Origin: an uncultured bacterium
GTDB taxonomy: Bacteria > Patescibacteriota > Patescibacteriia > UBA1558 > GWA2-36-10
DNA: 5,111 nt
Direction of reading: 5' to 3'
Assembly: GCA_937912185.1 (NCBI GenBank)
Contig: CALDOH010000007.1
Coordinates: forward strand, 1 to 5,111
Below, piece after piece: positions 13-5,111 of the stretch. Numbering within the stretch: position 1 is the first letter of the stretch; each line of letters opens with the position of its first letter. The notes below the pieces were generated by a model. It saw only the letters and a list, made by a program, of their open reading frames with translations, was not told the DNA's origin and searched no databases. Both the position numbers and the translations under genes were made by a program.

Positions 13-681
13 ATGAAATTCAATATTCTTACAATTTTTCCAGAGTCATTAGAAAGCTACTTTAGTAGTTCTATTTTGAAAAGGGCGCAGGATAAAAAAC
101 TGATCAGTATAAAAACTCATGACATACGGAAATCAGCAGGTGATAAAAGAGGGACGGTGGATGATACTCCTTATGGCGGAGGCGCTGGTATGGTTCTTAA
201 AATTGATGTAGTACACAAAGCTTTGAAAAAAGTATATCCGCGAAAAAACAAATCAACTAGAGTCATACTTATTTCTACTCGTGGAAAGACTTTGGATCAA
301 AATGAAGTAAAGCGTCTAGTAAAATATAAAAGGCTAATTATGATCGCTGGACATTATGAAGCTATTGATGCGAGGATAGACAAATTTGTTGATGAAAAAA
401 TATCTTTGGGAAATTTTGTGCTAACTGGTGGAGAATTAGCAGCTGCTTGTATAGTAGATGCTGTATCTCGTTTAGTTCCCGGAGTAGTCGGCAAAGAGGA
501 ATCGGTCCAAGATGAATCCTTTTCTTTTTATAACCAGAAAAAAGAGGAATTTAATATTGAATATCCTCAATATACTCGTCCAGAGAAATTCAAAGGGCTA
601 GAAGTGCCCCAAGTTTTACTCTCGGGCAATCATCAAAAAATAAGAGAATGGCGAGAAAAACAAACAAAGTATAGAAAATAG
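13..681 (+). CDS. trmD: tRNA (guanine(37)-N1)-methyltransferase TrmD
   Basis: TrmD transfers a methyl group from S-adenosylmethionine to N1 of G37, next to the anticodon of tRNAs with G at position 36, preventing +1 frameshifts; it is a cytosolic SPOUT-family homodimer with a trefoil knot. The 222-residue product (family usually about 230-255) has the hallmark segments in order: the MKFNILTIFPE start, DTPYGGGAGM (51-60), AGHYEAIDAR (112-121), the knot segment ISLGNFVLTGGELA (130-143), SRLVPGVVG (152-160), YPQYTRP (184-190) and VPQVLLSGNH (198-207). The ATG at 13 gives the canonical N-terminus; the 12 bases before it show no Shine-Dalgarno. Counting from Arg153 (Arg154 in Haemophilus TrmD), Glu168 falls where the catalytic Asp169 is expected, with Asp167 beside it. 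The gene is AT-rich, ends in TAG, and is followed by its own terminator, so it closes its transcription unit. rpsP/rimM may lie upstream and rplS does not follow. Family identity is certain. Confidence 0.97.
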   Translation: MKFNILTIFPESLESYFSSSILKRAQDKKLISIKTHDIRKSAGDKRGTVDDTPYGGGAGMVLKIDVVHKALKKVYPRKNKSTRVILISTRGKTLDQNEVKRLVKYKRLIMIAGHYEAIDARIDKFVDEKISLGNFVLTGGELAAACIVDAVSRLVPGVVGKEESVQDESFSFYNQKKEEFNIEYPQYTRPEKFKGLEVPQVLLSGNHQKIREWREKQTKYRK

Positions 682-699
682 AGGGTTTTTGCTAATTTT

Positions 700-730
700 A
701 GTCCCAAAATCTTTGGGGCTTCTTTTTATT
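700..730 (+). terminator. Intrinsic terminator after trmD
   Basis: A 9-bp stem (700-708 with 712-720, one G-U pair, core GTCCCAAA/TTTGGGGC) closes a 3-nt loop and is followed directly by TCTTTTTATT. It starts 18 nt after the trmD stop. The end of the U-tract overlaps the -35 box of the next promoter (729), so trmD is transcriptionally insulated from the downstream unit in minimal space. Confidence 0.9.
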
Positions 731-757
731 GACAAAAATACAAAAATATACTATAAT
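729..757 (+). promoter_or_regulatory. Perfect consensus sigma70-type promoter for the GC-rich surface operon
   Basis: TTGACA (729-734), a 17-bp AT-rich spacer and TATAAT (752-757) match the housekeeping sigma factor consensus at all twelve positions with optimal spacing. Transcription should start near 764. No start codon with a ribosome binding site lies close by; the first convincing gene starts at 1012, so the transcript would carry a leader of about 248 nt. The promoter predicts strong constitutive expression unless the leader is regulatory. Confidence 0.85.
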
Positions 758-763
758 TGAGCA

Positions 764-1011
764 TTCGCAATAAAAGAAAAAACAAGTGTTTTTGATAAAA
801 ATCAGGTGAGAGAAGTCCGGATATTTTTTTGTGTCCGTATATCTGTCCTCTGATTTTCAAGGAAACTTGGGAACAAAGGCGTTAATTGACAAAGGAAACA
901 TTGCACAAGAAAGGGAGTTCTAGTAGACGATTCGGATTAGAAGGATTGACCAACCTGCGGCTAAGGTCGTGGGAAAACCACCTCGAAAGAGGATGACCAA
1001 GGAGGAAGAGG
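764..1011 (+). promoter_or_regulatory. Long structured 5' leader (unidentified RNA element)
   Basis: This is the stretch between the predicted transcription start and the TTG start codon; no supported coding gene lies in it. Visible structure in order: a weak AAAAAC/GTTTTT hairpin (778-793); a long imperfect stem-loop (798-857) with an 8-bp base AAAATCAG/CTGATTTT, a middle AGA/TCT segment and a tip CGGATA/TGTCCG around a U-rich loop; immediately abutting it, CAAG-GAAA-CTTG (858-869), a GNRA-tetraloop hairpin that could stack on the first; an unstructured-looking A/G-rich stretch (870-960); and a compact three-helix element (965-998). I do not recognise a known riboswitch or Rfam class. Composition changes from AT-rich to GC-rich around 945-960. 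It may be a cis-regulatory leader, an mRNA-stabilising leader, or a separate small RNA. Confidence 0.5.
965..998 (+). promoter_or_regulatory. Three-helix RNA element next to the ribosome binding site
   Basis: GGTC (965-968) pairs with GACC (995-998) and encloses two hairpins: GTGG/CCAC (969-972 with 978-981, loop GAAAA) and CCTC/GAGG (981-984 with 989-992, GAAA tetraloop). C981 can serve only one of the two. The AAGGAGG ribosome binding site starts one base after the closing helix. CCTC (981-984) can alternatively pair with the GAGG inside that site (1002-1005), which would be a simple on/off switch. The structure was read by eye and its function is inferred. Confidence 0.45.
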
Positions 1012-1014
1012 TTG
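999..1014 (+). promoter_or_regulatory. Ribosome binding site AAGGAGG with TTG start
   Basis: AAGGAGG (999-1005) is a perfect Shine-Dalgarno match and lies 6 nt before the TTG codon at 1012. It decides the start: TTG at 1012 gives a classic signal peptide (MKNFIYILF...). No in-frame ATG gives a better N-terminus, and the ATG at 993 is in another frame. Confidence 0.85.
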
Positions 1015-2214
1015 AAAAACTTCATCTACATCTTGTTTGTTTGTTTGAGCTTGACCGTTTCGGTCCAGGCTCAGGCGGCAGACTACTACGTCGAGTCGTT
1101 GGGCGACACTGTTGTTGTTCACCTCAAGCCGGGTAATACTGGCATCACCATCAACCCCAAGGATATCGACTTCAATGACGATTTCTTGGAGTGGATTCAG
1201 CTGGCCAACGACGGCCAGGCTTACATGACGGTCTTCGTCTCCAACGACAAGACCAAGTGGGCCATGCTCCAAATCATGGAGCAGGATGAGCGCTTCAAGG
1301 ATCTTAACTATGATGAGCTCAACCTGAACTTCGACACCATGTCCAAGGGCGGTCGTCAGACGGCGGCCGATGAGATCTTGACTTACGCCGGACTCGAGCT
1401 TCAGGCTCGGATCAACTGGCGTTTCGGGCGGGAAAAGACCTGCTACTTCAAGATTTTTGGCGTCAAGGATAACAACAAGGGTGATGATCCTGATGATCAG
1501 CTCCAAGTGTTGTCGATCGACAACGACGTCTCGCCGCTGGTACTGCCTGTGCCTTTTGCGCCGCGGATCAAGTTCACGGTCTCGGGCGGTACGCCGCCGT
1601 ATCAGACCAAGCTGAGCTTCGATCAGAGGCCGATCTCTACCACCAGTACTGATACCACTTACACCGTGGAGTCGGTCGGTGATCATGAGATCGAGCTGAT
1701 GGTCGTCGATGCGGCCAACGATACTCTAGTGGTCAAGCAGAAGATCCGTGGGCTCAAGTCCAACTGGGCTTTGGGTCTCCATGGTGGCGTGAGTACTACT
1801 CGGGAAAGCGTGGCTCCTACGGCTACGGCGTCGCTGTACTGGCATGAACAGGTGATGCTTCGTGGACACTTTGTCCATGGACTCTTCCTGCGCCAGGATC
1901 GTGACTACTTCGGTAGTGATGAGCCGAGTTTTGACCGGGCCTGGGGTCTGGTGGCCGGCTACAAGCTGTCGGACACGCCGATCTGGCTGAGTCTGGGTTG
2001 GCATCATGAGGAGACCATCCTCGATGCCACCGATGAAGCTGGCAACAACCTGAGCTACTTGGACGTCGGCGAATTCGGCGTCAACTACATCGACAAGAAC
2101 ATCCAGCTGATTTTGGTCGCCAACTACGGCCATGAGAAGCCTTACACTGAGAACCTCAATACCACCTTCGGCGTGCGTTTCGCCGTCGTGGTTGGCAACA
2201 CCTGGGGGTGGTAG
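1012..2214 (+). CDS. Exported protein with PKD/Ig-like domain and C-terminal beta-barrel-like domain
   Basis: I do not recognise a named family. The 400-residue product starts with a Sec signal peptide (positive Lys2, hydrophobic 4-18, probable cleavage after AQA at residue 22). Residues 24-165 form an acidic domain without known motifs. Residues 172-247 look like a PKD/Ig-like beta-sandwich: the GGTPPY motif (192-197), then a GDHEIELMVVD strand (223-233). Residues 251-400 contain eight short segments with alternating hydrophobic/polar residues and many Gly, Tyr and Trp (about 251-260, 269-279, 281-295, 309-319, 323-334, 348-360, 363-375, 385-400), and the protein ends in Trp. That pattern is typical of small eight-stranded outer-membrane barrels of the OmpA/OmpX/OmpW size. 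Codons are GC-rich, unlike trmD. The next gene starts 2 nt after its TAG stop, so the two are probably coupled. The barrel call is inference from pattern; a soluble beta-sandwich is the alternative. Confidence 0.75.
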   Translation: MKNFIYILFVCLSLTVSVQAQAADYYVESLGDTVVVHLKPGNTGITINPKDIDFNDDFLEWIQLANDGQAYMTVFVSNDKTKWAMLQIMEQDERFKDLNYDELNLNFDTMSKGGRQTAADEILTYAGLELQARINWRFGREKTCYFKIFGVKDNNKGDDPDDQLQVLSIDNDVSPLVLPVPFAPRIKFTVSGGTPPYQTKLSFDQRPISTTSTDTTYTVESVGDHEIELMVVDAANDTLVVKQKIRGLKSNWALGLHGGVSTTRESVAPTATASLYWHEQVMLRGHFVHGLFLRQDRDYFGSDEPSFDRAWGLVAGYKLSDTPIWLSLGWHHEETILDATDEAGNNLSYLDVGEFGVNYIDKNIQLILVANYGHEKPYTENLNTTFGVRFAVVVGNTWGW

Positions 2215-2216
2215 AC

Positions 2217-4370
2217 ATGAATAAGATTCTTCTTCGGATCAGCTGGCTGTTGCTGGCCGTTGTCTTGATGACGCTTGGTTGCGCTAGCGACCAGGTCACT
2301 GGACCCAATGCTCCGGAAGAGCAACCGGTCAGTATGGAGTTGCACTTCGGTGTGACCAATGATCAGGACTACGTGCCTTTTGCCGCCTCGACCATTTACA
2401 CGGTCACGGGTGGCAGTGGAGTCTACAGCTACGAGCTGTACCGTGATGGTGAGTTCCTGGGTCACGATCCGATCCAAATCCTGCTCTTCAATGAAGTCCG
2501 GGACTACGAGATTACTCTCAAAGTCCGGGATGCTGAAACGGACTCTGTTCGGACGGCCAGTGTGATGGTGAGCGGCATGCAGTCGCCACCCGGCTTGCCT
2601 TTGGAGGTTACCGTCTATACGGCTGACTTCTTCGGCATCGTGCCCTTCACCGCTTCGGTCCTCGGTATCGCCAAGGGTGGTAAGCCACCCTACAGCTACG
2701 AGGTACTCGTCGATGGTGCCGTACTCTATGAGGACGACAACGTTCCGGTTCACATCACCGAAGGTGGCGATCACGAAGTACTCTTCCGCGTGACTGACGC
2801 TGTGGGCACCACTGTCCAAGACGGTGTCAGCATCTATGGGCATCTGCCCGAGGAAGATCCGCTGATGCGGATCAATTTCGTGGCTCTGCCTCAGACGGTG
2901 GAGCAGGGCAAGTACACTGGTCTGATTACCGTGGTTTACGGAGGGCAAGCGCCTTTCGATTTCGAGATCAGGGTGGATGACCAGGTGGTCTCCTATGAGC
3001 CCACCTACATGTACCAAGTAAACTTCCTGGGTGAGAAGATCGCCATGGTCAAGGTGACCGACGCGACCGGCATGTCCAGCGAGATCGGTCTGTCGATCTT
3101 CGGCGTTCGGCCTTATATCTATGTTCCGCCAGTAACGGTGGACGTGACGGCCAGTCCTCATGAGGCTCAAGCGAATGAGGATATTTCCTTTCACGCTGAC
3201 GTGCGTGGGGGGAGCTACGACCTGATCGAATGGTATATGGTCGGCGTTGATGTTGAGATTGGTCGTGGTGAAGATATCACCCGCAACTTCCAGACGCTTG
3301 GTTTCGAGTATGTGGAAGCTCGGGTATACAATTGGGGCAATTTCTTGGCTGCGGACACTGTCCGTGTCACCATCACTCCTTCGGATGATCCAAAGGTTCC
3401 TACGGTGGATGCTACGGCTACGCCATGGACTGGTATTGTTCCTTTCTACACCACGCTACATGCCGATGTTCGGGACGGTACGCCGCCCTACAACATCATC
3501 TGGTATGATGACAACGGCAACATTGTTGGTGTCGATGATCTCTATCGTCTGGTCGAGCGACCAGGCGAACATTTGTTCGAGGTTCGGGCAACCGATAGCC
3601 TTGGATTGGTGGGTGTTGACACCGTTGTCGTTGCTGGTACAAGTAGTGACGACCCCACCCTGCTCGTTGAAGTCACAGGCGGTCCGCAGGGACAGTTTGA
3701 GCCAGTATTAGCTACCCTAGAGGCACACGCCTCTGGCGGTGATGGCAACTACAGTTACGCTTGGTACTGGCCGACAGCGGCAACGTTGTTTTCCACTGAG
3801 CGTTTCCCGATTACGGAAGCCTTGGCTGCCGGTGCTCACACTTTCATCTGTGAGGTGACTGATAGCAGTGGTGCCACGGCCATCGATGATGTGATGATCA
3901 CTGTTTTGGAGACTCCGGGCGACAACGTAGTCACCTGGAGTCAGTGCCCCAACTTACGGGTTGGACCGAATGATGATTTTGCCAGAACTACGACTACGGT
4001 CGAAGTGACTGGTGATTATGAATCGTTTGTCCAAGTCGAATGGGACGCTGTACCGTCGGGTGAGCTCGACGCCTTCATGATGGAGATTACTCGTCCTGAT
4101 GGACATCGTTACACCTGGCGGGTGGACAAGCCTCGCGACTGGGGTCGCAAGACTGTCTACTACGAGGTGGGCAACGTCCATCTCGAGCAAGGCGATGTCG
4201 TCCTGAACATGTACTGGCTGGGCAACGATAAGTCCGGCGAGAAGTGTACCCGCTGGGACACCTGGCAGCTCATCTCGGGTAATGCCATCATCCCGGCCAA
4301 CAAGTCCACCGACGTGGTGGTAATTCGTCTCGATGACCCCAATCGAGACAGCTACATCACCCGTCAATAG
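2217..4370 (+). CDS. Surface lipoprotein with six PKD/Ig-like repeats
   Basis: The 717-residue product (ATG at 2217) has a lipoprotein signal peptide: Lys3 and Arg7, a hydrophobic core (8-20) and a lipobox-like MTLGC with Cys22 as the lipidation site. Residues 24-37 are a short linker. Six PKD/Ig-like repeats of about 80 residues follow: 38-120, 128-208, 216-296, 306-388, 395-474 and 482-564. Most show a VPF- or GGxxPY-type turn followed by a (V/A)TD strand, as in VTDA or VTDS. Repeats 1-3 carry a YSYE/FDFE strand, whereas repeats 4-6 carry a WY strand, so there are two subtypes. Residues 570-717 form a different beta-rich domain with Cys577 and Cys677 and many Trp/Tyr residues; I do not recognise it. 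Such repeat lipoproteins usually act in adhesion or as spacers on the cell surface. No LPXTG motif or C-terminal sorting tail is present. An in-frame GTG at 2208 lies inside the previous gene; ATG gives the better signal peptide. A G-rich GGGGGTGG (2204-2211) may serve as ribosome binding site. Confidence 0.85.
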   Translation: MNKILLRISWLLLAVVLMTLGCASDQVTGPNAPEEQPVSMELHFGVTNDQDYVPFAASTIYTVTGGSGVYSYELYRDGEFLGHDPIQILLFNEVRDYEITLKVRDAETDSVRTASVMVSGMQSPPGLPLEVTVYTADFFGIVPFTASVLGIAKGGKPPYSYEVLVDGAVLYEDDNVPVHITEGGDHEVLFRVTDAVGTTVQDGVSIYGHLPEEDPLMRINFVALPQTVEQGKYTGLITVVYGGQAPFDFEIRVDDQVVSYEPTYMYQVNFLGEKIAMVKVTDATGMSSEIGLSIFGVRPYIYVPPVTVDVTASPHEAQANEDISFHADVRGGSYDLIEWYMVGVDVEIGRGEDITRNFQTLGFEYVEARVYNWGNFLAADTVRVTITPSDDPKVPTVDATATPWTGIVPFYTTLHADVRDGTPPYNIIWYDDNGNIVGVDDLYRLVERPGEHLFEVRATDSLGLVGVDTVVVAGTSSDDPTLLVEVTGGPQGQFEPVLATLEAHASGGDGNYSYAWYWPTAATLFSTERFPITEALAAGAHTFICEVTDSSGATAIDDVMITVLETPGDNVVTWSQCPNLRVGPNDDFARTTTTVEVTGDYESFVQVEWDAVPSGELDAFMMEITRPDGHRYTWRVDKPRDWGRKTVYYEVGNVHLEQGDVVLNMYWLGNDKSGEKCTRWDTWQLISGNAIIPANKSTDVVVIRLDDPNRDSYITRQ
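2328..3908 (+). repeat. Coding region of six PKD/Ig-like protein repeats
   Basis: Six consecutive units of about 240-250 bp encode the beta-sandwich repeats of the lipoprotein. They are recognisable at protein level but not as DNA repeats. For example HADVR occurs in repeats 4 and 5, yet all five codons differ between the copies. The duplications are therefore old, or held by selection on the protein, and this is not a recent tandem amplification. Confidence 0.65.
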
Positions 4371-4379
4371 TTCATTCTA

Positions 4380-4761: not shown

Positions 4762-5111
<350 letters not shown>

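Follow-up and report, generated by a model that had tools for sequence, protein, structure and literature searches.

A conserved gene pair of Patescibacteria encodes a predicted β-barrel protein with an exchangeable C-terminus and a repeat lipoprotein

Results

The two genes and the predicted architecture of their products

The stretch of DNA analysed here (CALDOH010000007.1, 5,111 bases; 'the window') is a complete contig (C7) of an 866-kb genome that is 89% complete and distributed over 163 contigs. It carries a pair of open reading frames (ORFs), located where a preliminary description of the same DNA had placed them, which encode a protein with a predicted C-terminal β-barrel (protein 1) and a repeat lipoprotein (protein 2). 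Judging by the named homologues of the pair, which are from 'Candidatus Parcubacteria' and 'Candidatus Komeilibacteria', the lineage is that of Patescibacteria. The features of the pair are as follows.

1012..2214 (+): protein 1, 400 residues; TTG start with an AGGAGG-type ribosome site; homologues in 9/21 genomes of the family
1012..1077 (+): signal-peptide-like segment, residues 1-22 (AQA|AD), read from the sequence; modelled as a helix over residues 2-20
1081..1470 (+): OmpA-like (peptidoglycan-binding-like) domain, residues 24-153, by predicted fold
1513..1752 (+): Ig/PKD-like domain, residues 168-247, from model strands and alignment gaps
1759..2205 (+): predicted eight-stranded β-barrel, residues 250-398, type A (see below), from the model
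2208..4370 (+): protein 2, repeat lipoprotein, 720 residues from a GTG start; overlaps the 3' end of the protein 1 ORF
2280..2282 (+): lipobox Cys codon (LTLGC), read from the sequence
2337..3908 (+): six PKD/Ig-like domains, residues 44-567, from the model
3978..4217 (+): C-terminal β-sandwich-like domain of protein 2, residues 591-670, from the AlphaFold2 model

For protein 2, the in-frame ATG at 2217 is a likelier start than the GTG at 2208.

The preliminary description had read eight β segments ending in Trp, and hence a barrel of outer membrane (OM) type, from the C-terminal region of protein 1. Structure prediction indeed yields an OM-type barrel whose eight strands comprise residues 252-262, 267-277, 281-289, 306-318, 324-337, 347-360, 364-376 and 383-398, and the terminal Trp is present; a soluble β-sandwich is contradicted by the model. 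By predicted fold, the domain corresponds to the eight-stranded OM barrel of the OmpA family, and the model matches OM barrels best, with the top 14 rows of the VIA-align comparison all being membrane barrels, natural or designed. In the model, the short turns (278-280, 319-323 and 361-363) are located at the same end of the barrel as both termini, and the loops at the opposite end are longer (4, 16, 9 and 6 residues). Short turns on the same side as the chain termini represent the usual OM topology. With the termini and short turns at one end, the wall-binding-like domain and the short-turn side of the barrel would face the same way, as in OmpA.

The N-terminal domain of protein 1 is OmpA-like by predicted fold and not by sequence. 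N66, N78, R115 and G127 are invariant in all 14 aligned rows, while position 108 is Asp in 13 and D79 is retained in 12 of them. The spacing of D108 and R115 equals that of N-x6-R in the wall-binding segment of E. coli OmpA, a segment which hhalign likewise aligns, albeit not significantly (P 0.15 for OmpA, 0.14 for Pal and 0.052 for both). The Pfam OmpA profile PF00691 exceeded its cut-off in none of the 21 family genomes, with none of three weak hits being protein 1; Pfam and Protein Data Bank (PDB) sequence searches with the domain rows named no family, the latter returning two chance hits; and a PDB search with the full protein 1 profile returned PEPCK-type chance hits only, so that we dropped sequence homology to OmpA. 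No family in Pfam, NCBIfam or PHROGs names protein 1. In OmpA, Arg and Asp are the wall-binding residues, and we assume the same role for R115 and D79; the conservation of these two residues is only suggestive of peptidoglycan binding by protein 1. The Ig/PKD-like domain that follows is missing from alignment rows P0005-P0008, L032-L035 and L055. The preliminary description had thus captured the barrel region, and had missed the wall-binding-like N-terminal domain, the internal Ig-like domain and the exchangeable C-terminus described below.

Its second proposal, a lipoprotein with six Ig-like repeats, agrees with our results for protein 2: apart from the lipobox, six domains with the characteristics of PKD domains are predicted (residues 44-124, 133-212, 220-300, 310-390, 399-478 and 486-567), and the C-terminal sandwich is an addition to that account. 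All aligned rows of protein 2 having an N-terminus exhibit a lipobox-like start (G-C or A-C). LspA, which served as positive control, was found in 19/21 family genomes; the genome of the window, which is incomplete, gave no hit. A phage origin was considered and rejected: protein 1 has no PHROGs match, and the matches of protein 2 to Hoc-like Ig decoration proteins (best E 1.5e-7) were taken to reflect shared Ig-like repeats.

Recurrence of the pair and modular exchange

The pair is present in 9/21 family genomes, on the same strand and with the two genes overlapping or within ~20 bases of each other. This adjacency recurs more often than expected by chance, and answers the call of the preliminary description for a survey of related genomes. 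A single-sequence search with protein 1 identified 8 of 140 relatives, each belonging to the same family as the window; the pair of G019 came to light both by profile and in the sequence that follows trmD, the tRNA guanine-1-methyltransferase gene. That gene, detected in 19/21 family genomes (no match in G016 and G018), lies directly upstream of the pair in six of them (G000, G001, G002, G008, G015 and G019), one ORF away in G007 and five ORFs away in G012, while the pair of G004 is located elsewhere. In the ten other family genomes with trmD, a 16S start motif follows and the pair is lacking; one of these (G013) has a transposase-like ORF (L061:9046-9882) between trmD and 16S, where relatives carry the pair. 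This synteny in nine genomes of a single family, with trmD upstream in eight, excludes the suggestion that the host assignment might be different, and likewise rules out contamination or wrong binning.

Across 380 genomes of the class, the protein 1 profile retrieved eight family members and one spurious hit. Searches of 5.8 billion proteins, which reach only relatives sharing short words, yielded 9 clusters in one search with protein 1, 10 in another, and 8 with protein 2; among the 10 clusters, none held a protein 1 homologue from outside the lineage. As candidate relatives from outside the family, we dropped four weak matches that span 40-44 residues of the Ig-like part, two of them interrupted by stops, and a weak profile hit in G078, located inside a thymidylate kinase-like frame.

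Pairwise comparison of the nine genomes distinguishes three types of C-terminal domain: A (G000, G002, G012, G004 and G015), B (G001, G007 and G008) and C (G019). The best E-value between types is 0.004, obtained without composition correction, so that the types may be distantly related. Types B and C end in Phe, and a C-terminal Phe resembles the OM sorting signal. In G001, the N-terminal domain shares 64-68% identity with its counterparts in G000, G002 and G012. The C-terminal domain of G001 instead shares 47% identity, across 131 residues, with the type B domains of G007 and G008 (E 6e-41 and 8e-42), two genomes whose N-terminal domains are only 24% and 20% identical to that of G001. As judged from these identities, protein 1 of G001 represents a clean exchange of the C-terminal domain at the domain boundary.

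Genomic surroundings

Four further features frame the pair in the window.

13..681 (+): trmD, the pair's conserved upstream neighbour (Pfam PF01746, 174.6 bits)
729..757 (+): promoter-like site TTGACA-17-TATAAT, 12/12 match; reached by 0/500 dinucleotide shuffles of the sequence between the genes
799..856 (+): hairpin AAATCAG...CTGATTT within the pair's long 5' leader; sequence conserved in G000, G001, G002 and G019
4762..5111 (+): 5' end of the 16S rRNA gene, continuing past the window edge (Rfam RF00177, 305.6 bits)

A sigma-70-like site with 17-base spacing is located upstream of all nine pairs (0-2 mismatches of 12, at most one in 8/9). Dinucleotide shuffles (500 each) equalled the observed site 0-5 times in eight pair-bearing genomes and 47 times in G015; upstream regions with at most one mismatch numbered 2/57, 6/64 and 11/92 in samples from the window's genome, G008 and G012, respectively. 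For the leader hairpin, 5 of 26 predicted pairs show changes on both sides among four sequences; an Rfam search gave no credible RNA family or riboswitch, and a search within its own genome gave no second strong match.

The pair coincides with a GC-rich island (window 950-4375; ~55% GC across the pair stretch, with flanks near 33%). GC content at third codon positions (GC3) is 0.73 for protein 1 and 0.63 for protein 2, compared with a median of 0.31 for 64 sampled ORFs of the same genome, and the contrast is kept in all nine pair-bearing genomes (0.44-0.77 for the pair vs 0.20-0.36 for trmD). We do not read this as an effect of expression, because the other GC-rich ORFs of the sample do not resemble ribosomal genes. 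Further lipoprotein-like ORFs with GC well above that of their neighbours occur in both pair-bearing and pair-free genomes: L056:10957-11742 (G017), L063:10132-10848 (G005) and L082:14907-15629 (G012).

Envelope machinery and barrel genes in relatives

No Omp85 over the cut-off was found among the 140 relatives, including the nine pair-bearing genomes, although a very divergent Omp85 could escape the profiles, which match in 7 of 14 controls. In G099 and G143, weak hits to Omp85 below the cut-off lie in frames (L067, L124) that do not, by eye, read like Omp85. LptD (whose profile matches only 2/14 controls) and TamB were found in none of the 21 family genomes. The usual markers hence lend no support to the earlier suggestion of a different cell envelope.

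Barrel genes in genomes devoid of a detected Omp85 are, as far as profile matches tell, not peculiar to the window: of 285 genomes of the class, 22 match the Pfam barrel profile PF13505 at E 0.01, 5 of them above the cut-off, and Omp85 exceeds its cut-off in 0/22 of these. A strong PF13505 protein of G192 (L103; L121:923-1471) was left unused as a possible contaminant, given its short contig (3.8 kb) and the 5% contamination of that genome. In family f37, members of the FadL/TodX family (PF03349, cut-off 30) score 148 bits in G066 (L113:7613-8794, on a 290-kb contig), 133 in G158 (L119:6599-7774) and 101 in G193 (L120:6493-7671); L116:3524-4729 of G210 is alike by look only. ORFs nearby resemble a 3-hydroxyacyl-CoA dehydrogenase (G066), a thioesterase (G210), and an AMP-binding enzyme together with an alpha/beta hydrolase (G158), which makes the f37 proteins candidates for a lipid-uptake route. 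Patescibacteria are not known to make fatty acids. Family f13 has barrel-like proteins of ~200 residues with a signal-peptide-like start (L114:7826-8425, L117:7020-7619, L118:6845-7531 and L123:6504-7112), the one scanned matching PF13505 with 33.2 bits (cut-off 28.7); their genes adjoin a conserved membrane-protein-like ORF of ~412-442 residues. Finally, L115:2771-5560 of G109, on a GC-rich contig of unverified origin, encodes a LysM and barrel-like protein with a lipoprotein ORF directly after it.

Discussion

The architecture predicted for protein 1 resembles, and yet differs from, that of several known proteins. OmpA of E. coli and OprF of Pseudomonas exhibit an N-terminal barrel followed by the OmpA-like domain, that is, the reverse of the order predicted here, and share no significant sequence similarity with protein 1, some members of which have an Ig-like domain in between; moreover, the owners of OmpA-family proteins possess the β-barrel assembly machinery (BAM), whereas Omp85 was not detected in the pair-bearing genomes. 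The closest architecture in print is that of OmpM of Veillonella, described as an N-terminal SLH domain, a linker and a C-terminal OM barrel (PMC10628300), so that OmpM and, by predicted fold, protein 1 both have the wall-binding domain first, a linker next and the barrel last. We found no match to the SLH domain at E up to 1 in 14 protein 1 members, no coiled coil is predicted, the barrel is small and eight-stranded, and the owner is without a known OM. SlpA of Deinococcus, from which protein 1 differs in the same respects, is reportedly grouped with OmpM as a tether of diderm Terrabacteria. Within Patescibacteria, the f37 FadL/TodX genes are, like the window pair, barrel genes of genomes devoid of a detected Omp85, but belong to another barrel family, lack a wall-binding domain and have acyl-CoA-type genes nearby. 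The G109 pair (L115:2771-4663 and 4664-5560) likewise combines a wall-binding domain (LysM, over cut-off), a barrel-like region at the C-terminus and a neighbouring lipoprotein gene, but is not recognisably related in sequence, matches barrel models only below the cut-off, and is known from one genome. Protein 2 resembles the GhpA grappling hook of Aureispira in its chain of Ig-like domains (Foldseek E 7e-18); GhpA is far larger, Ig chains match many things, and we do not claim homology.

Three designs fit a wall anchor joined to a barrel: a tether of the cell's own membrane, a staple to the membrane of a host, and a soluble adhesin. We tentatively favour, with a probability of roughly 0.42, that the pair constitutes a two-protein surface staple in which the barrel of protein 1 is planted in a membrane outside the cell's own wall, probably the OM of a diderm host. 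Protein 1 would be exported by Sec, and its N-terminal domain would hold the cell's own wall through R115 and D79, while the barrel would insert into a lipid membrane beyond that wall; the owner of this membrane would be the host. Lipoprotein 2 would extend from the cytoplasmic membrane on its PKD/Ig-like chain. The adjacent conserved genes, the signal-peptide-like start, the lipobox and the exchange of C-termini on a conserved N-terminal domain are observed; the folds of the three protein 1 domains and the protein 2 repeats are predicted. An exchangeable end on a constant anchor would be expected of a module meeting something variable, for example a host; host attachment, which the preliminary description had raised, thereby gains indirect support and is itself still conjectural. 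A barrel inserted from outside would retain both termini on the side from which it was added, as purified OmpA reportedly does in vitro. Since no Omp85 was detected, the barrel would need another way into a membrane, possibly the membrane of a host cell. Some Patescibacteria live in close attachment to gammaproteobacteria, separated from them by less than ~20 nm (PMC13059738).

Several caveats apply to the predicted folds. The models are of moderate quality (model of protein 1: mean predicted local distance difference test (pLDDT) 72.9, predicted template modelling score (pTM) 0.41, 14 sequences; AlphaFold2 model of protein 2: mean pLDDT 76.0, pTM 0.41, 13 sequences), PF13505 has no match in the pair-bearing genomes searched (G000, G001, G004 and G008), and the amphipathicity of the strands is not significant, as 1709 of 5000 shuffles within strands alternate at least as strongly on one scale and 430 of 5000 reach the observed value on another scale with family averages. 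The lineage might also have an outer lipid layer of its own, in which protein 1 would serve as tether in the manner of OmpM or SlpA. Lipoprotein 2 would then be another protein of that envelope, and barrel placement would either do without BAM or rely on a machine that is not recognised as such. The domain order shared with OmpM (PMC10628300), the predicted topology of protein 1, which is that of an OM tether, and the barrels encoded by several families of Patescibacteria, FadL-family proteins included, speak for this alternative. FadL-family proteins normally reside in the OM of their owner. We nonetheless consider such a tether rather improbable, because Omp85, LptD and TamB were not detected in the genomes surveyed above, Patescibacteria are described as being without OM (PMC12102498), and an exchangeable C-terminus is less expected of a housekeeping tether.

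It is unlikely, though less so, that protein 1 is a wall-bound surface adhesin with a soluble or S-layer-packed barrel, the pair then being an ordinary secreted adhesin and a repeat lipoprotein. The fold matches, the top 14 of them to membrane barrels, and the C-terminal Phe of types B and C argue against it, as does strand composition: the lipophilic faces (n=52) comprise 14 aromatic, 20 aliphatic, 3 Gly and 4 charged residues, and the opposite faces (n=49) 2 aromatic, 10 aliphatic, 9 Gly, 17 polar and 7 charged ones, a contrast that is biased by the choice of faces according to lipophilicity. That the pair is foreign DNA, either a contaminant or a very recent transfer with no specific role, would agree with its high GC3 and patchy presence, but is most improbable in view of its recurrence in the family, the upstream trmD in 8/9 cases, the GC contrast kept in each genome and the lack of protein 1 homologues from outside the lineage in the short-word search. 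Readings other than these deserve but slightly more weight than foreign DNA.

We found no literature on barrel proteins in genomes without a detected Omp85 when screening titles and the beginnings of abstracts, a screen whose coverage mostly excluded subscription journals. Barrels without a detected Omp85 would imply either a hidden lipid layer in a supposedly single-membrane phylum or the export of barrels into the membranes of other cells, and each of these would be new. It is tempting, although doubtful, to speculate that some Patescibacteria plant a wall-anchored, exchangeable barrel in the OM of a diderm host, with the barrel module setting which host is gripped, and that the FadL-type barrel of a sister family may tap the fatty acids of the host.

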